From an uncultured Anaeromyxobacter sp. (GTDB lineage: Bacteria; Myxococcota; Myxococcia; Myxococcales; Anaeromyxobacteraceae): 40,707 bases of DNA. How positions within the stretch are numbered: position 1 is the first letter of the stretch; every line of letters begins with the position of its first letter. Positions 6,582 to 14,527 of this stretch are shown one piece after another. Location of the stretch: contig CAIVAR010000183.1 of NCBI GenBank assembly GCA_903904005.1, positions 1 to 40,707 on the forward strand. The letters run 5' to 3'. The translations under genes were made by a program, and so were the position numbers. The notes beneath the pieces are model-generated. The model searched no databases, had not been told where the DNA came from, and was given only the letters and a program-made list of their open reading frames with translations.

Positions 6582-7651
6582 GTAAGGCTCCCGAGGGGAC
6601 GATGCCTTGGCGGAAGTCGTGGCGGAAGAAGTGGCGCGAGGGGTCCAGTTACCGGTCTCTGACGAGTCTCCAAAAGGTCGTCTTGGCATGGGTCGAGGAG
6701 AACGCCGACGATGAAGGTCGGACTGGCCCCACCACCGAGCGGTGGCTTGCTGGGCTGCTGTCCAGCCCACGGGAGAAAATCTCCCGGGACGCCGTCCATC
6801 GGGCCATGTCGGCGCTCATCAGGGCAGGGTTAGTGTCGAAACACCCGCACCAAGAGCCGCACCAAGGGCCGCACCTAGCGCCGACGGTCTATGTGCGCGG
6901 TAACTGGAGGGAATACCAGGGCGCCGCCGGCGACCCGCACCAAGAGCCGCACCGGCTGGTCGATGGGACCCGCACCTATCTAGCAGAATTAAGCAGAAAG
7001 CAGTCTCTTCCTACGGAAGAGACGGGCTGCGCCCGCACCTCTGCGCCGGCCCCCAAGGCCTCCCCCTTCCCCCCGGCCTTCTGGCGCCTCCTCAAGCACT
7101 ACTCCGTCCCCCCCCTCGACAAGGCCGACAAGGGCCAACTCCTCCAGCGCCTCAAGGCCGGGGAGTCCCTCGAAGACCTCGCCGTCAAGCTCGTCACTGG
7201 ATTCTCCTACGGCGCCAAGACCGGTCGCGGCGCCCTCGGCTTCATCCGCCAGTTCAACGACCCGATCACCCGATTGGAGATGGACGATGTCCACGCTGCC
7301 TACCGACGCCTCGCCGCCGAGGAACACCGACTTGGAGACGGCCCTGGACGACGAACTGGTCATCCAGCAACGAAGCCACCCGCTCAACTTGGGCTTCCCG
7401 AAGTGGGAGAAGCTGACGCGTCCAAGCTCGGGGCTCTTCATGGTCCTGGGGGGCAGACCGGGCCAGTTCAAGACGACCTGGGCGTGGACGATGGCGGTGA
7501 ACCTCGCGCTAGCTGGGAAGCGAATCTGCTGGATCGGGTTGGAGATGCGGCCCGGGCAGATGGCCGCGATGCTGGTCTCGCGGTTGGCCCATATCCCACG
7601 CAAGAGGCTGGAGGACGCCTGGAGACCGGGAGGGGCTTTGACCTCCGCTGA
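6578..7651 (+). CDS. Winged-helix replication initiator-like protein
   Basis: The N-terminal 90 residues look like a winged helix of phage replisome organisers: LTSLQKVVLAWVEENAD, TTERWLAGLL, SRDAVHRAMSALIRAGLV, then a wing. A His/Gln/Pro-rich stretch with HQEPH repeats follows, and a second domain ends about residue 245 (LGFIRQFNDPITRLEMDDVHAAYRRLA). The next gene (7287-8222) starts inside this frame, so the last 122 codons would be read in two frames. Their Gly/Arg/Ala-rich composition looks like a helicase shadow, so the functional protein may be only the first 240 residues plus an unconstrained tail. Position just before a DnaB-type helicase supports an initiator or loader role. Confidence 0.6.
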   Translation: MSKAPEGTMPWRKSWRKKWREGSSYRSLTSLQKVVLAWVEENADDEGRTGPTTERWLAGLLSSPREKISRDAVHRAMSALIRAGLVSKHPHQEPHQGPHLAPTVYVRGNWREYQGAAGDPHQEPHRLVDGTRTYLAELSRKQSLPTEETGCARTSAPAPKASPFPPAFWRLLKHYSVPPLDKADKGQLLQRLKAGESLEDLAVKLVTGFSYGAKTGRGALGFIRQFNDPITRLEMDDVHAAYRRLAAEEHRLGDGPGRRTGHPATKPPAQLGLPEVGEADASKLGALHGPGGQTGPVQDDLGVDDGGEPRASWEANLLDRVGDAARADGRDAGLAVGPYPTQEAGGRLETGRGFDLR

Positions 7652-8222
7652 GACCAACGCCATCGACGACGTTCGGGTCCAGATGTCGGCCATGAGAATC
7701 GTCTTCCACGACCCCTCACGAAACTCGACCATCGACGTCATCGAGTCCGCTCGCAAGGTCCGATACGACGCCGTCTTTGTCGACCACTTGGGGCTCGTTG
7801 GTGCCGGCCGGGGCGACGAATTCGAGAAACTCAACGACACCATCACCGCCCTGCGCCGCCTCGCCCACGGCGAACTCGCCCCAGGCTACTACCCGCTCGT
7901 CATCGCGCTCTCCCAGCTAAACCGGGAGATCGAGAAGACCGACCCCAAGAAGCCCGCGTCCCGATATCCGCGCATGTCCGACCTGCGCGGGTCCGGGCGC
8001 CTGGAGGCTGACGCCGACGCCATCACGATCCTCCACCGCCCAGGCTCCCTCGACCCCGAGAATCAGTCGCTCGACCTGCGCGCCGTCATCGTGAAGAACC
8101 GACAAGGCCCGTTCCCCGTAGCCCTGCAACTCGACCCGAAGCCCGACTTCTGTCTGGTCGAGGAGGCGTCCGACGCGCTCGCCCCCCCGGCTCGCCACTA
8201 CTCCGACCCGGAGGCCGCATGA
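7287..8222 (+). CDS. DnaB-type replicative helicase (RecA-like domain only)
   Basis: This is a 311-aa protein from ATG 7287, with GGAG nine bases upstream. Residues 55-64 (GGRPGQFKTT) form the Walker A loop, and YDAVFVDHLG (160-169) matches the DnaB Walker B strand. ALSQLNRE (208-214) and SDLRGSGRLEADADAI (231-246) are signature DnaB motifs H3/H4. The N-terminal primase-interacting domain of full DnaB is missing, as in many phage helicases. It unwinds DNA at the phage fork, probably loaded by the product of the gene it overlaps. The next gene overlaps its stop (ATGA). Confidence 0.88.
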   Translation: MSTLPTDASPPRNTDLETALDDELVIQQRSHPLNLGFPKWEKLTRPSSGLFMVLGGRPGQFKTTWAWTMAVNLALAGKRICWIGLEMRPGQMAAMLVSRLAHIPRKRLEDAWRPGGALTSAETNAIDDVRVQMSAMRIVFHDPSRNSTIDVIESARKVRYDAVFVDHLGLVGAGRGDEFEKLNDTITALRRLAHGELAPGYYPLVIALSQLNREIEKTDPKKPASRYPRMSDLRGSGRLEADADAITILHRPGSLDPENQSLDLRAVIVKNRQGPFPVALQLDPKPDFCLVEEASDALAPPARHYSDPEAA

Positions 8223-8463: not shown

Positions 8464-8739
8464 ATGACGGTCTTCTGTCAGGTCAACGAGTGCAACCGGA
8501 TTGCCCAGCGCAACGGTCTCTGCTGGGCGCACGTCCGGCGTCGTTCGCGTGGCTCGTCCCTCTCGGCGCCGATACGCAGGGTCACCTCGCCCTGGTCAAC
8601 CGTCGTCGATGCAGCGATCGACCTTGCCGACTCGGACTCCCAGGACGACACGAACTATCGGCGTCGCCAGTGGCGGCTGCGGAAGGCAACGCTCCGATAT
8701 GCGCGCTCTCTCGGCTACCAGCGAAAGGTCGCGCGATGA
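8464..8739 (+). CDS. Zinc-finger protein, 91 aa
   Basis: ATG 8464 follows a very strong GGGAGG site. The N-terminus carries C-x4-C (CQVNEC), then NGLCWAHVRRRSRG, i.e. C-x2-H followed by basic residues. The same C-x4-C...G-L-C-x2-H-x-R pattern occurs at 38805-39065 and, less exactly, at 553-1020 and 1017-1220. The C-terminal half is a basic helix (YRRRQWRLRKATLRYARS). A nucleic-acid-binding regulator is a reasonable inference. Confidence 0.7.
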   Translation: MTVFCQVNECNRIAQRNGLCWAHVRRRSRGSSLSAPIRRVTSPWSTVVDAAIDLADSDSQDDTNYRRRQWRLRKATLRYARSLGYQRKVAR

Positions 8740-8768
8740 GTCACCATCGAATAGCGAGACCACCATGA
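8736..8768 (+). CDS. Possible 10-codon coupling minicistron
   Basis: ATG 8736 overlaps the TGA of the zinc-finger gene, and after MSHHRIARPP its TGA overlaps the ATG at 8765. The following gene has no convincing ribosome site, so ribosomes could reach it by terminating and restarting through this short frame. It may have no function as a peptide. Confidence 0.3.
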   Translation: MSHHRIARPP

Positions 8769-9040
8769 CCGATGACGAGATCAAGGCGTTCATAGCTCGG
8801 GAGCGCTGGACCTTCGCCAAGTCGATGCCGACGAACCCTCATGAGTACGTCGTCCGCAAGCAGGTCGCCGTCGAGGCCGACTTCGTCCGCTTCGCCCTGC
8901 ACATCCGCGAGCACGGCTACCGGATGAAGTTCAAGGGCTGGCTCTACACCTGCTTCGATGTCGACGGCTTCCGCTACTGGACGATGGGGAACCCAATCGA
9001 GATCACGACGATCATCAACCGAGCGAGGAACGAAACGTGA
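8765..9040 (+). CDS. Conserved phage hypothetical protein, 91 aa
   Basis: The product reads IKAFIARERWTFAKSMPTNP, HEYVVRK, then DFVRFALHIREHGY, YWTMGNPIEIT and IINRAR. This combination (RWTFAKSMP, PHEY, YWTMG, INRA) is one I recall from many phage and prophage hypothetical proteins, but no biochemical role is known to me. It has no membrane segment. Its start overlaps a minicistron stop and its stop overlaps the methyltransferase GTG, so it may belong functionally with the downstream modification cassette. Confidence 0.75.
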   Translation: MTDDEIKAFIARERWTFAKSMPTNPHEYVVRKQVAVEADFVRFALHIREHGYRMKFKGWLYTCFDVDGFRYWTMGNPIEITTIINRARNET

Positions 9041-9654
9041 CGACTATCGGGCAACACCGGGTGACTCACGGGAACGTCGACGACGCCCAAGTCGACCAGA
9101 TGCTCGCAGGGGAGCGCGTCTGGACTCTCTATTCAGACCCGCCCTGGGGCGACGGGAACATGGAGTACTGGCGCACCATGAACCGCAAGATGACCGGCGA
9201 GGACGTCCCCCAGATCTCGCACGACCGGATGTTGTGGCGCTTCCGAGACCTCATCACGAAGTACGTCGACGGATACGCCTTCATCGAGACGGGCCTGCGA
9301 TGGCAGCAGCCTTGGGTCGAAAATCTCAAGGCCTCGGGATTGGTGAACCTCCAGACCGTCCGGGTGTTCTACGGCTCCAGTTCCAAGCTCTACGAGAACG
9401 TCTTGATCTGCGGGAGTCGCCCCGGCGTTCCGGCCCCGCTACTGGACGGCGCGGAGAAGCTTCGCGGGCTCCCGCTACCCACCAAGTGCCTCGGAGCCGT
9501 TGCGCGTCCGAGAGCCATCGTCCTCGACCCTTGCTGTGGCATGGGCTACACCGCCCGCGCCGCCGTTGCCAACGGGATGATCTTCCGGGGGAACGAACTC
9601 AACGCCTCGCGTCTCGCCAAGACGGTCGCGCATCTCCAGGGGACGGTCGCATGA
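9037..9654 (+). CDS. DNA methyltransferase with DPPW motif
   Basis: This is a 205-aa protein started at GTG 9037 (GTGA overlap). The catalytic motif IV is DPPW at residues 34-37, typical of amino-methyltransferases acting on adenine N6 or cytosine N4. The AdoMet-binding motif I comes later (LDPCCGMG, 163-170), followed by GNELNASRL. The order IV then I is that of beta-class enzymes with little room for a target-recognition domain (about 125 residues between). It leads a tightly coupled cassette with GNAT, PAPS-reductase-like and ParB-like genes. Protection of phage DNA from restriction is the simplest role. Confidence 0.85.
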   Translation: MTTIGQHRVTHGNVDDAQVDQMLAGERVWTLYSDPPWGDGNMEYWRTMNRKMTGEDVPQISHDRMLWRFRDLITKYVDGYAFIETGLRWQQPWVENLKASGLVNLQTVRVFYGSSSKLYENVLICGSRPGVPAPLLDGAEKLRGLPLPTKCLGAVARPRAIVLDPCCGMGYTARAAVANGMIFRGNELNASRLAKTVAHLQGTVA

Positions 9655-10037
9655 CGGTTGAGATCCGCGCAGCCCGCCCCGGCGAGGTCGACGGCCTTCG
9701 GAAGATCGCGTCCGCTACCAAGGCCTATCTGCTCTTCGCCGGCACTCCCGAGTTCATCGTCGCCGTTCTCGACGGGAGACTGGTCGGCATGAGCGGGCTC
9801 GTCCGGCACGGCGAATCGGCGCGCATCAAGAACCTGTTCGTTGTCCCCGAGGTGCGTGGGAAAGGTGTGGGCTCCATGCTTCTGCAAGCCCAGCTGGCGC
9901 ACCTCAAACGGGTCGGCGTCAAGCGCGTCGAGGCTGCTGCTACCGACATGAGCCTTCGCATCTTCCTCGCCGCCGGCTTCACCAAGACCCGGTCCTACTC
10001 CACCTCGACCGGCGTCCGGCTTGAGATGACCCCGTGA
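9651..10037 (+). CDS. GNAT-family N-acetyltransferase-like protein
   Basis: This is a 128-aa protein, ATG 9651 overlapping the methyltransferase stop. It is a complete GNAT fold: IRAARPGEVDGLRKIA (beta1-alpha1), MSGLVRHGES, motif A NLFVVPEVRGKGVGSMLL with the R-G-x-G acetyl-CoA loop, and a final IFLAAGFTKTRSY. The substrate cannot be read from sequence. The Mu Mom protein, which hypermodifies adenine in DNA, also has a GNAT fold, and this gene lies between a DNA methyltransferase and IbrA/IbrB-like genes. A DNA-modifying role is therefore worth testing, although a protein substrate is equally possible. Confidence 0.8.
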   Translation: MTVEIRAARPGEVDGLRKIASATKAYLLFAGTPEFIVAVLDGRLVGMSGLVRHGESARIKNLFVVPEVRGKGVGSMLLQAQLAHLKRVGVKRVEAAATDMSLRIFLAAGFTKTRSYSTSTGVRLEMTP

Positions 10038-11140
10038 AGTTCTACGGCAAGGAGAATGTCTTCGATGCGGCCCTCAACCGCATCCGCTACCTGTTCGACG
10101 AGTTCCCAAACGTCATCGTCTCCGTCAGCGGCGGCAAAGACTCCACCGTCATCTTCCACCTCGCCCTCCAAGTCGCCCGGGAGAAAAACCGCCTCCCCCT
10201 GCGCGTCATGTTCCTCGACCAAGAAGCCGAGTGGCAGGCCACCATCGACCAGATCCGCTCCATCATGCAGCACCCCGACGTTGAGCCGTTCTGGTACCAG
10301 ATCCCTCTCAGGCTCTTCAACGCCACTTCGACCGTCGAGCACTGGCTCATGTGCTGGGACCCCGCCGAGGAAGCGCGCTGGATGCGCCCCAAGGAGTCCT
10401 ACTCCATCAAGGCCAACACCTACGGCACCGACCGCTTCGGAGAGCTCTTCAACGCCGTCATCGCCAAGGACCAGCAGGGCCCTACCGCCAACATCGGCGG
10501 CGTCCGTACCGAAGAATCACCCGCCCGCTTCGTGGGCCTCACCACCCAAGCCACCCACAAGTGGATCACTTGGGGGAAAGTCCTGACGAAGCGCCTGGAT
10601 CACTACACGTTCTACCCGATCTACGACTGGTCCTACTCCGACATCTGGAAGGCCATCCACTCCAACGGCTGGCCCTACAACGCCGTCTACGACGCCATGT
10701 ACAGCTACGGAGTCCCCGTGCTCGACATGCGCGTCTCCAACGTCCACCACGAAACCGCCGTCCAACACCTCTTCCGCATGCAGGAGATCGAGCCCGACAC
10801 CTACGAGCGGCTGACCCAACGCATCGCCGGGATCGACATGGCCGGCAAAATGGGGGAGGCCGACTACTTCGTCAAGGATCTCCCCTTCATGTTCCAGTCC
10901 TGGCGCGAGTACCGGGACTTCCTCCTCGACAAGCTCATCACCAACCCCGACTGGCACGCCGGCTTCCGGCGCATCTTCAAGCGCCATGAAGACCTCTTCC
11001 TCGATGTCATCGGGGACCGCCTGTTCAAGGTCCACATCAGTTCCATTCTCACCAACGACTGGGAGCATGTGAAGCTCCGCAACTTCGAAGGCCGGCGCGA
11101 CATCAACGATATCCGACGCGCCAAGAAGGCACTCGCATGA
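10034..11140 (+). CDS. IbrA-like PAPS-reductase-family protein
   Basis: This is a 368-aa protein, its start overlapping the GNAT stop. SGGKDST at residues 32-38 is the PP-loop of the adenine-nucleotide alpha-hydrolase/PAPS-reductase superfamily; MFLDQEAEWQ follows as the second strand. A long C-terminal extension (YPIYDWSYSDIWKAIHSNGW, then TYERLTQRIAGIDMAG, RRDINDIRRAKKALA) matches the IbrA group rather than metabolic CysH. Family knowledge: IbrA is encoded beside the ParB-like IbrB in prophages and was found as an activator of immunoglobulin-binding genes; its chemistry is not established to my knowledge. PP-loop enzymes activate a substrate by adenylation or reduce sulfur compounds, so DNA or RNA thiolation is conceivable. 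Confidence 0.85.
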   Translation: MKFYGKENVFDAALNRIRYLFDEFPNVIVSVSGGKDSTVIFHLALQVAREKNRLPLRVMFLDQEAEWQATIDQIRSIMQHPDVEPFWYQIPLRLFNATSTVEHWLMCWDPAEEARWMRPKESYSIKANTYGTDRFGELFNAVIAKDQQGPTANIGGVRTEESPARFVGLTTQATHKWITWGKVLTKRLDHYTFYPIYDWSYSDIWKAIHSNGWPYNAVYDAMYSYGVPVLDMRVSNVHHETAVQHLFRMQEIEPDTYERLTQRIAGIDMAGKMGEADYFVKDLPFMFQSWREYRDFLLDKLITNPDWHAGFRRIFKRHEDLFLDVIGDRLFKVHISSILTNDWEHVKLRNFEGRRDINDIRRAKKALA

Positions 11141-11784
11141 ACCTCCTCGACCAGATTCGCAAGGCCCACACCGCTGCGCCCGACAAGGCCGCCTTCCTCA
11201 ACGATGTCCGCGCCCTGCTCCACGACCTATCACCCAACAAGCACAACCCCGTCGACCTCGTCCGCTGGGTGCCCATCGACCAAGTCCAGGCCAACGACTA
11301 CAACCCCAACGCCGTCGCCAAGAACGAGATGCGCCTGCTCTACGTTTCCATCGCCCACGACGGTCTTACCCAGCCGGTCGTCACGGTCTGGGACCCCGCA
11401 CTCCATAAGTACGTCATCGTAGACGGCTTCCACCGCTACTCGACCTTGCGTCTGAACGCCGACCTGCTTGCCAAGAACGCTGGCCTCATCCCCGTCGTCG
11501 TTCTCGACAAGCCCATCAACGACCGCATGGCGTCCACCGTCCGACACAACCGCGCTCGCGGGAAGCACTCCGTCGCCGGCATGGCCAGCATGGTCTTCCA
11601 GATGCTCGATAACGGGTGGACTGACGAAGCCATCTGCCAGGAGATCGGCGTCGAGGCTGACGAACTCATCCGGCTCAAGCATGTCACCGGCTTCTCAAAG
11701 CTCTTCGAGAACGTCGACTACCGGCGATCTTGGGAGACCAAGCAGCAGATCAAGCTACGCAGAGAGCACCAGCGCACCGCCTAA
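11137..11784 (+). CDS. IbrB-like ParB/Srx-fold protein
   Basis: This is a 215-aa protein coupled to the IbrA-like gene by ATGA. After a helical N-terminus it has VPIDQVQANDYNPN (residues 45-58), GLTQPVVTVW and YVIVDGFHRYS (92-102), the ParB/sulfiredoxin nucleotide-binding core. An HTH-like region follows (MLDNGWTDEAICQEIGVEADELIRLKHV). IbrB proteins form a recurrent pair with IbrA. ParB-fold proteins bind nucleotides (CTP in partition ParB), so it may recruit or gate its PP-loop partner on DNA. Genuine chromosome partition is unlikely because no ParA is present. Confidence 0.82.
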   Translation: MNLLDQIRKAHTAAPDKAAFLNDVRALLHDLSPNKHNPVDLVRWVPIDQVQANDYNPNAVAKNEMRLLYVSIAHDGLTQPVVTVWDPALHKYVIVDGFHRYSTLRLNADLLAKNAGLIPVVVLDKPINDRMASTVRHNRARGKHSVAGMASMVFQMLDNGWTDEAICQEIGVEADELIRLKHVTGFSKLFENVDYRRSWETKQQIKLRREHQRTA

Positions 11785-11797
11785 CCCGAGGGCTCAC

Positions 11798-12391
11798 ATG
11801 AACGTCATCGAACTCCCGCTCACCGATGTCCGACCCTACTGGCGTAACCCGCGCCTCAACGACAAGGCAGTCGACGCGGTGAAGGAATCCATCTCCCGCT
11901 TCGGCTTCAACTCCCCCCTCATCGTCGACGCCGAGAACGTCATCATCGCCGGCCACACGCGCTACAAGGCGCTCACGCAGATGGGGTTCAAGACCGCCCC
12001 TTGCGTCGTCGTCGACCTCCCGCCCGATAAGGCCAAGGCCTACCGGGTCGCTGACAACAAGACCTCCGAGCTTGCCGAATGGAACATGGCGAACCTCCTG
12101 CCAGAGCTCCGAGAGATCGCCGATGTCGCCTCCATGCAGGTCTTCTTTGGCGATGACGACCTCGCCGCTCTACTCAAGGCAAGCGTCGGCGCTGTCGACT
12201 TCATGCCCGTCACCCAAGAGGAGATCGACAACGTCGCCGCCGAACACTCCGCGCGCTACGAGGACCAGAACACCGCTCTCAAGTCCGACTTCGTCGACGT
12301 CACATGCCCTCATTGCGGCGAGTCCTACGCCATCCGCCGCTCCGAAGTTCAGAGCGCCAAGGATGCCATCGCAATCGACCAGCCGGTGTAG
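11798..12391 (+). CDS. Second ParB-like N-terminal domain protein
   Basis: This is a 197-aa protein starting at ATG 11798 behind GAGGG, 13 bases after the IbrB-like stop. The core is LPLTDVRPYWRNPRLND, FGFNSPLIVD, VIIAGHTRYKAL (GHTRYKA at 52-58) and VADNKTSELAEW. It ends with CPHCGESYAI, half of a zinc ribbon. This is the ParB/RepB/Spo0J nuclease-type domain that often accompanies DNA methyltransferases in phages. It is clearly distinct from the neighbouring IbrB-like protein, so two ParB-fold proteins lie side by side. A role as specificity or docking factor for DNA modification is inferred from context. Confidence 0.82.
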   Translation: MNVIELPLTDVRPYWRNPRLNDKAVDAVKESISRFGFNSPLIVDAENVIIAGHTRYKALTQMGFKTAPCVVVDLPPDKAKAYRVADNKTSELAEWNMANLLPELREIADVASMQVFFGDDDLAALLKASVGAVDFMPVTQEEIDNVAAEHSARYEDQNTALKSDFVDVTCPHCGESYAIRRSEVQSAKDAIAIDQPV

Positions 12392-12421
12392 CCGGTGCTC
12401 GCACTCGGGGAGGGTAGGGGC

Positions 12422-13018
12422 GTGGACGACGACCGCACACGCATAGACGGTATAAAGCCGCCCGCCTCCGGAGCGCGTCGGACGTACCCCGGGCGCGGCA
12501 GGAAGGCGAGCCCCAAGCGCATCGCTCAACGCGATCGGATGCGCCAAGTGCTCGACATGCGCCGTGCCGGCGCGACTCTGCAAGTCATCGCGGACAAGCT
12601 TGGGTATGCCAACCCGTCCGGCCCCAAGAAGGTCATCGAGATCGCGCTCAAGGAGGTGCTCAAGGAGCCTACCGAGGAGATCCGCAAGATCGAGTTCGAA
12701 CGGCTTGAAGCCATGACGCTCGTCTTGTGGCCCAGGGTGTTCCGGCGAGATGGCAACCCTCCCGACATGGCCTCCATCAACGCCATGCTTCGCGTCATGG
12801 AGCGCCGCGCTGGACTGCTCGGGCTCGATGCTCCCAAGAAGGTCTCGCTCCAGGGCGAAGACGGGGCGCCTCCCGTCCGCATCGCCCACGGCATGGACCT
12901 CGCCCGCCTTTCCACCGACCAGCTTCGCCAACTCGACGATCTGCTCGCCGCCGCAAGTCCTACCGCCAAGGCAGCGGCCCAGACCGTCGACCTTCCGCCG
13001 CTCCCGCCGACTGAGTAG
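12422..13018 (+). CDS. terS: Terminase small subunit
   Basis: This is a 198-aa protein; GTG 12422 is chosen because it follows GGGGAGGGTAGGGG, whereas the GTG at 12395 does not. A basic N-terminus precedes an HTH (RMRQVLDMRRAGATLQVIADKLGYAN), the DNA-recognition domain of phage small terminases, then an oligomerisation-like helical region and a Pro-rich tail. The large subunit starts four bases after its stop. It would recognise the packaging site and load DNA into the motor. Confidence 0.85.
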   Translation: MDDDRTRIDGIKPPASGARRTYPGRGRKASPKRIAQRDRMRQVLDMRRAGATLQVIADKLGYANPSGPKKVIEIALKEVLKEPTEEIRKIEFERLEAMTLVLWPRVFRRDGNPPDMASINAMLRVMERRAGLLGLDAPKKVSLQGEDGAPPVRIAHGMDLARLSTDQLRQLDDLLAAASPTAKAAAQTVDLPPLPPTE

Positions 13019-13021
13019 TCC

Positions 13022-14527
13022 ATGGACCTTCCGACCCGGATCGAGATTCAACGCGAACTGGCTCGGAGGTCGCTCCTGGACTTCACGCGCTACACCTATC
13101 CGGCCTACCACGCTGGGTGGTTCCACGCCGAAGTGGCGATGAAGCTGGACGCCTTCCTAGACGATGTCGACGCTGGCCGCTCGCCCCGGCTCATGCTCTT
13201 CGCGCCACCACGGCACGGCAAGTCGGAGCTCGTCTCCCGCCGCTTCCCAGCCTTCGCTCTCGGGCGCAACCCCGACCTTTCCATCATCGCCACTTCCTAC
13301 TCGGGAGACCTCTCCAGCAGGAACAACCGGGATGTCCAGCGCGTCATGGACGACTCGGTCTACCAAGAGATCTTCCCGACAACGAGGCTCTACTCCTCGC
13401 ACGTCCGGTCGAGTTCACAAGGGAGCTATCTCCGCAACTCGGACGTGTTCGAGGTCGTAGGCCGGCGAGGCGTCTACCGGTCGGCCGGCGTCTGTGGCGG
13501 CATCACCGGCATGGGCGGGCAGATCCTCATCATCGACGACCCGGTCAAGGACGCCCTGGAAGCCGAATCGTCGACGTACCGGGAGCGCGTCTGGGAGTGG
13601 TATCGCTCCACGTTCTACACGCGCCTCGCCCCCGGTGGCGGCCTGCTCCTGATCATGACTCGCTGGCACGAAGACGACTTGGCCGGCCGGCTTCTCAGCG
13701 CGGAGAAGAGCGGAGGCGACAAGTGGAACGTCGTGAAGTTCCCCGCCGTCGCGGAGGGCGACGAGCTGCACCGAAAAGCCGGCGAGCCCTTGCACGCGGA
13801 ACGCTACCCGCTCTCTGCTCTCAAGAGCATCAAGACGGCAGTAGGATCCCGGGTCTGGTCGAGTCTCTACCAGCAACGCCCCACCGCAGCTGATGGCGCC
13901 ATCTTCAAACGCGACCTCTGGCGCTACTACCGGGCGCCGTCCACCGACCCCGCCGAGATCGTGCGCCTACTCGGCATCACCAGGGTCATCCAATCCTGGG
14001 ACACGGCGTTCAAGGCGAAGGAGGGGAACGACTACAACGCGGGCCTCACGTTCGGGGAAGCCAAGTCGGGCTACTACCTACTCGACTGCGTGAAGCGGCA
14101 GATGGAGTACCCGGAGCTCAAGTCGGTCGCGCAATCTTACGCCGCCAAGTGGTGCCCCCATTCGGTGCTGGTCGAGGACACCGCCGCCGGCCAAAGCCTC
14201 ATCCAAGAGCTCAAGCGCGACACGCGCCTGCCCATCGTCCCGATATCTGTCGACCGAGACAAGGTCTCCCGCGCGCATGCCGTGACCCCCCTCTTGGAGG
14301 CGGGCCGGTTCATGCTCCCCGAGGGAGAGGCGTGGACGTCCGACTTCGTCGACTCGCTGGCGTCGTTCCCGAACGGGCTGCACGACGACGACGTGGACGC
14401 CTTCACCCAGGGCGCCAACTACCTCGTCCGAGGCGGTGGCGGTCTCGGCCTCTGGGAGTTCTACCGGGAGCAGGCCGAGGCTGCGAAGGCCAAGCGGGCA
14501 GGGGAACCTGTCCCCGCCCAGGCATAG
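13022..14527 (+). CDS. terL: Terminase large subunit
   Basis: This is a 501-aa protein. The ATPase domain has Walker A FAPPRHGKSE (60-69), Walker B QILIIDDP (167-174) and a coupling motif near TSYSGDL. The RNase H-like nuclease domain has acidic residues in SWDTAFK (Asp327), VEDTAAG (385-390) and HDDDVDAF (about 454-461). The length is standard. It cuts concatemeric DNA and pumps it through the portal encoded next door. There is no conventional ribosome site before ATG 13022, and it follows the small subunit by three bases, suggesting coupled translation. Confidence 0.95.
   Translation: MDLPTRIEIQRELARRSLLDFTRYTYPAYHAGWFHAEVAMKLDAFLDDVDAGRSPRLMLFAPPRHGKSELVSRRFPAFALGRNPDLSIIATSYSGDLSSRNNRDVQRVMDDSVYQEIFPTTRLYSSHVRSSSQGSYLRNSDVFEVVGRRGVYRSAGVCGGITGMGGQILIIDDPVKDALEAESSTYRERVWEWYRSTFYTRLAPGGGLLLIMTRWHEDDLAGRLLSAEKSGGDKWNVVKFPAVAEGDELHRKAGEPLHAERYPLSALKSIKTAVGSRVWSSLYQQRPTAADGAIFKRDLWRYYRAPSTDPAEIVRLLGITRVIQSWDTAFKAKEGNDYNAGLTFGEAKSGYYLLDCVKRQMEYPELKSVAQSYAAKWCPHSVLVEDTAAGQSLIQELKRDTRLPIVPISVDRDKVSRAHAVTPLLEAGRFMLPEGEAWTSDFVDSLASFPNGLHDDDVDAFTQGANYLVRGGGGLGLWEFYREQAEAAKAKRAGEPVPAQA

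Follow-up and report, generated by a model that had tools for sequence, protein, structure and literature searches.

A conserved phage gene core built on IbrA and IbrB with exchangeable group-transfer enzymes: a candidate pathway for nucleic-acid hypermodification

The sequence studied here is a contig of 40,707 nucleotides (CAIVAR010000183.1, assembly GCA_903904005.1) filed under an uncultured Anaeromyxobacter sp. and called the window throughout. Positions 8765–12391 carry a block of six genes, P6–methyltransferase–GNAT–IbrA–IbrB–ParB2, all on the plus strand and in open frames (Table 1). Comparison with viral relatives identifies P6–IbrA–IbrB–ParB2 as the conserved unit, accompanied by exchangeable decorating enzymes; the methyltransferase and the GNAT protein are two of many alternatives for a slot between P6 and IbrA. 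Because the genes adjoining IbrA are overwhelmingly group-transfer enzymes, the best-supported reading is a modular pathway for hypermodification of nucleic acid, probably DNA, in which IbrA and IbrB would activate and fill a site and the slot enzymes would decorate it. We hold this reading with modest confidence.

A preliminary description of the window had listed five of these genes, from the methyltransferase to ParB2, between replication and terminase genes. Their place is confirmed, a DnaB-like helicase gene lying upstream and the large terminase gene downstream, and the families named (DPPW methyltransferase, GNAT, IbrA with SGGKDST, IbrB and a ParB-like protein) are borne out by motifs, Pfam and PHROGs. 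The three overlaps it reported are present (ATGA at 9651, GTGA at 10034 and ATGA at 11137), with a 13-nt gap before ParB2. It had overlooked the sixth gene, P6, which is joined to the methyltransferase gene by a fourth overlap, GTGA at 9037.

Loci for comparison were collected by scanning IMG/VR with IbrA (80 loci, 50–69% identity), the methyltransferase (2 loci), an alignment of P6 (72 loci) and the large terminase (80 controls). Hidden Markov models (HMMs) of gene families were built from the first, IbrA-derived set and then run on all loci. A total of 102 IbrA loci were non-redundant at 90%, of which the 80 that extend 2 kb or more upstream of IbrA form the counting set; the control set comprises 75 loci with a related terminase and without IbrA. 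IbrB is present in 79 of the 80 loci, ParB2 in 74 and P6 in 71, and 64 of 71 P6-anchored viral loci have IbrA at most 6 kb away. The 75 controls contain neither P6 nor IbrB, ParB2-type genes occur in 11 of them and an amino-methyltransferase in three, and the slot families of glycosyltransferases, GNAT proteins and F11 (described below) are absent from them, as judged by HMMs modelled on IbrA loci. The core is therefore P6–IbrA–IbrB–ParB2, and the association is real and not due to chance, since IbrB stood beside IbrA in all loci of a set of 65 non-redundant ones. The five genes proposed at the outset do not form such a unit and fail the co-occurrence test that the preliminary description set for them: only 3 of the 80 loci (the window, L003 and L196) have the full set of five families, which L046 and L062 also have outside the 80. 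Methyltransferase and GNAT are found together less often than expected, three times against 7.4 (p = 0.03; this and the other pair p-values ignore shared ancestry). At two loci (L193 and L236), the P6 gene faces an opposite-strand IbrA–IbrB–ParB set with its own divergent P6-like gene, which represents a second module architecture. None of the literature searched describes the module, IbrA–IbrB appearing there as annotations only.

At least one group-transfer enzyme occurs in 76 of the 80 loci. Glycosyltransferases are found in 45 of them, amino-methyltransferases in 31, S-adenosylmethionine methyltransferases fused to P6 in 27 (the fusion being judged from a length of at least 180 aa, with Methyltransf_25 in the one protein scanned), GNAT proteins in 19 and F11 in 10. 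Among the glycosyltransferase families, F22 corresponds to Pfam GT2, F6 and F44 both match the glucosyltransferase phrog_854, and profile comparison aligns F44 with F6 (E = 5e-15) and with F24 (E = 4e-14), which makes F6, F24 and F44 one glucosyltransferase-like superfamily. F11, a small protein carrying an HxD...H motif, matches cupins and Asp-hydroxylases weakly and nothing in the PDB; the motif suggests that it may be dioxygenase-like. The genes are tightly packed, overlaps in the slot being the rule and 90% of the gaps between neighbours being at most 10 nt, and slot enzymes behave in pairs like alternatives or teams. A glycosyltransferase and an amino-methyltransferase share a locus nine times against 17.4 expected (p = 1.7e-4), GNAT and the P6-methyltransferase never do (6.4 expected, p = 1.6e-4), and F11 is invariably accompanied by a glycosyltransferase.

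Among the rare occupants of the slot, L191 has an arginine decarboxylase of the pyruvoyl type, L233 a protein resembling phosphatidylserine decarboxylase, and L216 and L231 SpeD-like proteins; SpeD is absent from 43 control records. These predicted decarboxylases fit amine chemistry; phage SpeD homologues include arginine and ornithine decarboxylases (PMC9992855). Other rare slot genes encode a nucleoside-diphosphate (NDP)-sugar epimerase (L077) and methyltransferases of the TylF (L052), FkbM (L032) and NNMT (L063) types. At several loci, among them L210, L227 and L019, the divergent amino-methyltransferase-like genes MT and F17 occur as a pair, often as direct neighbours; the DPPW motif of F17 is degraded, as in an active/inactive methyltransferase heterodimer. 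In an unbiased Pfam scan of ORFs upstream of terminases, considered at the level of the 25 most frequent families with single control hits possible, the controls showed lysis and lambda-type genes (lysozyme, antiterminator, NinG and RusA types), whereas the IbrA loci showed ParB_N, methyltransferases and GNAT.

A search for the ThyA-family hydroxymethylase (PF00303) through the entire genome to which the window belongs, and through 50 viral records with IbrA, fragments among them, found none. DNA glycosyltransferases in these phages would thus be without the usual hydroxymethyl handle, and IbrA–IbrB would be the natural candidate for installing one. The same absence weighs against the rival view that the locus is a hotspot of separate anti-restriction devices, each modifying DNA alone and with IbrA–IbrB unrelated to them, since a T4-type DNA glycosyltransferase working alone depends on a hydroxymethylated base. 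The quick turnover of the slot, whose enzymes vary by locus, and the stand-alone methyltransferases that the Pfam scan also detects near the terminases of control phages would agree with such a hotspot. However, P6 is rare without IbrA, the slot genes lie between the two with 4-nt overlaps, and the slot genes listed include neither toxins nor other cargo typical of hotspots. Separate devices therefore appear improbable, even though this is the rival that survives best.

The next rival, which we also judge improbable, is that the enzymes decorate glycans or proteins of the virion or the cell surface, IbrA making an activated sugar or an adenylylated precursor. The presence in the slots of GT2 and DXD-type glycosyltransferases, the NDP-sugar epimerase and the TylF- and FkbM-type methyltransferases speaks for this view. 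It accounts poorly for the constant partners being ParB-fold proteins, for the frequent replacement of the glycosyltransferase by DNA-type amino-methyltransferases (35 of the 80 loci have no detected glycosyltransferase) and for a site adjoining the terminase and not tail or lysis genes.

The core proteins give further indications of the chemistry. IbrA matches PAPS_reduct (PF01507, 7.6e-17) followed by DUF3440 (PF11922, 3.9e-7), both over the cut-off, and phrog_2302 (8e-86). It carries the motifs SGGKDST (residues 32–38), GVRTEESPAR and PIYDWSYSDIW, and across 54 IbrA sequences SGGKDS, D-E at 62–64, G-R--E---R (GxRxxExxxR) and P--DW---D (DWxxxD) are conserved. Such a complete set of PP-loop, GxRxxExxxR and DWxxxD motifs would be needless in a pure regulator. 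This argues, together with the group-transfer enzymes in nearly all loci, against a regulatory or partition module in which IbrA–IbrB co-activate phage or prophage genes, ParB2 is their DNA-binding partner and the enzymes are passengers. That view draws on the IbrAB of E. coli ECOR-9, reported (J Bacteriol 2002, 184:3640, as cited in PMC8065619) to activate prophage eib genes; we find it quite unlikely here.

The AlphaFold model of IbrA (mean predicted local distance difference test, pLDDT, 92) has a PP-loop fold over residues 1–255, with best neighbours (Z 13.5–15.7) in the 3'-phosphoadenosine-5'-phosphosulfate (PAPS) domain of flavin adenine dinucleotide (FAD) synthase, in CysD and in adenosine-5'-phosphosulfate (APS) and PAPS reductases. 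FAD synthase and CysD transfer adenosine monophosphate (AMP) to phosphate or sulfate without a catalytic cysteine; the reductases and DndC use cysteines. No invariant cysteine exists among 65 IbrA proteins: the best columns reach 75% and 54%, and the IbrA of the window has a single cysteine, at residue 107. Because no cysteine is invariant, AMP transfer or adenylate activation would be the better inference for IbrA from its sequence and model, and sulfur chemistry is unlikely. This leaves unsupported the suggestion, made in the preliminary description, that the block manipulates host sulfur chemistry, and tells against the wider possibility of DNA phosphorothioation or thiolation of the DndC/SspD kind or of PAPS reduction. 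IbrA does belong to the CysH/CysD/DndC branch of PP-loop enzymes, matching DndC models (3e-7) and CysD (1.4e-8), but DndC carries a cysteine dyad and Fe-S cysteines (PMC10853773), and DndD (TIGR03185), the partner searched for in the whole genome, reached only 30.9 bits against a cut-off of 245.85. Sulfur chemistry is thus very unlikely.

IbrB matches phrog_2159 (1e-67) and, just under the cut-off, Pfam ParB_N (1.4e-5); it has an invariant DGFHR motif and conserved MASTVRHNRARGKH motifs. Its profile matches the N-domains of ParB/Noc and the SbnI kinase and DGFHR is kept, making a role that uses nucleoside triphosphates (NTPs) plausible. ParB2 matches ParB_N (1.2e-6), phrog_620 (5e-46), phrog_498 (3e-34) and profile positions 12–143 of a PADLOC type II methyltransferase model (2.6e-20), and its C170 and C173 are invariant in relatives. 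ParB/Srx proteins bind NTPs, and PP-loop enzymes and GNAT proteins also act on small molecules, so that an anti-defence pathway altering or removing a host nucleotide signal or NTP pool could be imagined; the variety of decorators is hard to square with destroying one signal, and DNA is the target suggested by the ParB-fold partners and the adjoining terminase genes, which makes this too a highly doubtful alternative.

Compared with known systems, the window pair belongs to the IbrA/IbrB families (phrog_2302 and phrog_2159; YbdN/YbdM in E. coli, where ybdNM is the counterpart, PMC9068703): PAPS_reduct precedes DUF3440, and a ParB-like IbrB follows the PP-loop protein in the same adjacent order through the 4-nt overlap at 11137. 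What sets it apart from other such pairs is that it is locked to P6 and a group-transfer slot beside the terminase. Amino-acid transfer and decarboxylation occur in phage thymidine hypermodification clusters. In clusters acting on thymidine or cytosine a handle is likewise followed by group-transfer enzymes, as for the bases derived from 5-hydroxymethyldeoxyuridine (5hmdU) in phages M6 and ViI (PMC6449724), the carboxymethylcytosine pathway CmoX/CmoY (PMC12783734), in which CmoX, like IbrA, has neighbouring ParB_N proteins, and T4 glucosylation (PMC13216743). Unlike clusters based on 5hmdU or 5-hydroxymethylcytosine (5hmC), the present module lacks the ThyA-family hydroxymethylase for deoxyuridine and deoxycytidine monophosphates (dUMP/dCMP), and activation would instead be PP-loop adenylation by IbrA. 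Dnd/Ssp phosphorothioation (DndC/SspD with DndB/SspE) also couples a PP-loop enzyme to a ParB-superfamily protein and acts on DNA, but the conserved sulfur-transfer and Fe-S cysteines of DndC (PMC10853773) are missing from IbrA, as is the catalytic C-terminal cysteine of the PAPS/APS reductase CysH. In phage ParB–methyltransferase fusions (phrog_498; PADLOC PDLC03229), ParB2 matches the ParB half and the methyltransferase weakly the catalytic half, whereas here the two are encoded separately, one at either end of the cassette, and IbrA–IbrB lies in the middle. With Mu Mom, a GNAT-fold protein that modifies DNA, the block shares a GNAT-fold enzyme encoded in a phage locus that may serve DNA modification; the window GNAT, however, matches general GNATs in Pfam and PHROGs and is missing from most IbrA loci. 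The Mom-like role once suggested for it finds no support, Pfam placing it in an ordinary acetyl-CoA-type family, a placement made by family matches only. As far as sequence can tell, the module behaves like a phage hypermodification pathway, and tests for membership place it in neither the 5hmdU/5hmC-based nor the phosphorothioation systems.

P6 has no Pfam, PHROG or NCBIfam match. An alignment of 31 relatives is conserved and the AlphaFold model is of high confidence (pLDDT 94.7), yet the fold has no confident PDB neighbour (the best, bacterial Ku, has a Z of 4.6, below the reliable range), there is no convincing PDB sequence match, and one unnamed BFVD model of 93 aa resembles it (template-modelling score 0.88). 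On a virus contig without IbrA nearby (L230:5971-7761), the P6 domain is fused to what by eye is an SMC-like AAA ATPase; P6 may be a general DNA-related domain. Other P6-domain proteins without IbrA are found at L190:5914-6297, L194:2204-2788 and L204:5670-6104; by eye, the first adjoins an endonuclease/exonuclease/phosphatase-like gene and the last has a DGQHR (DndB-like) gene some 2 kb away, which may place them in a defence setting.

In the methyltransferase, motif IV (DPPW, residues 34–37) precedes motif I (DPCCGMG, 164–170), which is the beta-class order, and D34-P35-P36-W37, D164, G168, G170, E187 and N189 are invariant in relatives. Its match to Pfam N6_N4_Mtase (7e-4, 20.1 bits) falls below the cut-off. 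A PDB match to Crov588 (E = 3e-5) was rejected as a chance match to a repeat protein. The GNAT loop RGKGVG (69–74) agrees with the acetyl-CoA loop R/QxxGxG, R69 being invariant and G72 kept in 88% of relatives.

Neither P6 nor the methyltransferase has a tblastn match in cultured phages; the P6 profile detects the domain in Microbacterium phage Rasputia. One end of the Rasputia record holds, in order, two Pfam glycosyltransferases, an F44-family glycosyltransferase, a GNAT, a P6-containing methyltransferase and IbrA, and the other end holds IbrB, two ParB2-type genes, a helix-turn-helix (HTH) protein and the terminase. Arthrobacter phage Laroye has the order ParB–IbrA–IbrB–methyltransferase–HTH–terminase, and Mycobacterium phage Athena has IbrA–IbrB–terminase with ParB upstream.

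Under the hypermodification reading, the block would act once replication is done and immediately ahead of packaging, building a hypermodified base or, with lower probability, a different group on the nucleic acid. With its PP-loop, IbrA would transfer AMP to some site of the nucleic acid (or to a small acceptor) and release pyrophosphate; IbrB, a putative NTP-binding ParB/Srx-fold protein, would be its DNA-sliding or phosphoryl-transfer partner, and ParB2 and P6 would make the site available by binding or scanning DNA. A nitrogen or oxygen nucleophile, possibly an amine or amino acid, would displace the leaving group, and the slot enzymes would finish the product, here by an amino-methyltransferase and an acetyltransferase, elsewhere with sugars, other methyl groups, oxidation or decarboxylation. 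We infer that DNA is the substrate, in what order the steps occur, what kind of nucleophile is used and that the phage is protected from host defence. A more specific proposal is tentative and somewhat doubtful: that IbrA–IbrB activates an ordinary base or the backbone by cysteine-free PP-loop adenylation with a ParB/Srx NTPase partner, that an amine or amino acid is attached and exchangeable decorations follow, that no hydroxymethylated nucleotide is needed and that P6 is a new DNA-site domain.

Several points weigh against hypermodification by one pathway. Because the models of the slot families came from IbrA loci, the difference between these loci and the controls is exaggerated. Neither P6 nor slot enzymes accompany the more distant IbrA–IbrB pairs of Flavobacterium, Streptococcus and Mycobacterium phages. 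Avoidance of hexamer palindromes is stronger at IbrA loci than in the controls (0.68 versus 0.76, p = 0.001; window 0.61), which speaks against blanket restriction immunity, with lineage and host as confounders. The pathway may act on RNA, a nucleotide or a glycan instead of on DNA, and different slot enzymes may act separately, without a single shared product. The palindrome test, taken as possible support for restriction immunity, gave none, palindromes not being relaxed in IbrA phages. The pair in the distant phages follows a gene of some 400 aa (L085:4145-5353 and L091:3779-5014), which in FCL-2 encodes an SNF2-type helicase; this suggests a second, different IbrAB association.

The contig, one of 186 in a 4.56-Mb assembly, is a phage contig and not a host locus, since an IbrA profile search of 99 related genomes matched, beyond the window itself, nothing but other PP-loop proteins, weakly and over short stretches. 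It has no terminal repeat of at least 12 nt. The position of the probable small terminase is occupied by the HTH protein in Rasputia and Laroye too. Pfam, PHROG, NCBIfam and PADLOC-type profile scans gave no nuclease match among the cassette proteins; a small HNH-endonuclease-like gene (8464–8739; phrog_19978, 3.5e-7) lies just upstream of P6.

Table 1. Genes of the module and its flanks in the window
Feature	Position	Strand	Description
DnaB-like helicase, upstream flank	7287-8222		PHROG match
P6	8765-9040	+	90 aa; module core protein, new domain, invariant P-H, Y, N
Methyltransferase	9037-9654	+	GTG start; short beta-class amino-methyltransferase; slot enzyme
GNAT acetyltransferase	9651-10037	+	Acetyltransf_10 9e-13; acetyl-CoA loop RGKGVG; slot enzyme
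IbrA	10034-11140	+	Predicted PP-loop ATP pyrophosphatase, DUF3440-type helical tail; core
IbrB	11137-11784	+	ParB/Srx-fold protein; core
ParB2 (second ParB)	11798-12391	+	ParB_N domain and C-terminal CxxC zinc-ribbon-like tail; core
Probable small terminase (HTH-like), outside module	12395-13018	+	Precedes large terminase (TerL); phrog_645 2.8e-28, named RNase E in PHROGs
Large terminase, outside module	13022-14527	+	Pfam Terminase_6N/6C

IbrA–IbrB is widespread in phages and bacteria, and its usual annotations, PAPS reductase and ParB partition protein, mislead, the former because this IbrA clade lacks the reductase cysteine. Its place at the core of a swappable line of enzymes gives the pair a concrete, testable chemistry. 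If the product is a hypermodified base, the module would represent a route with a starting point other than hydroxymethylated nucleotides, together with a new set of DNA-modifying enzymes, and would likely be an anti-restriction trait of many environmental phages.

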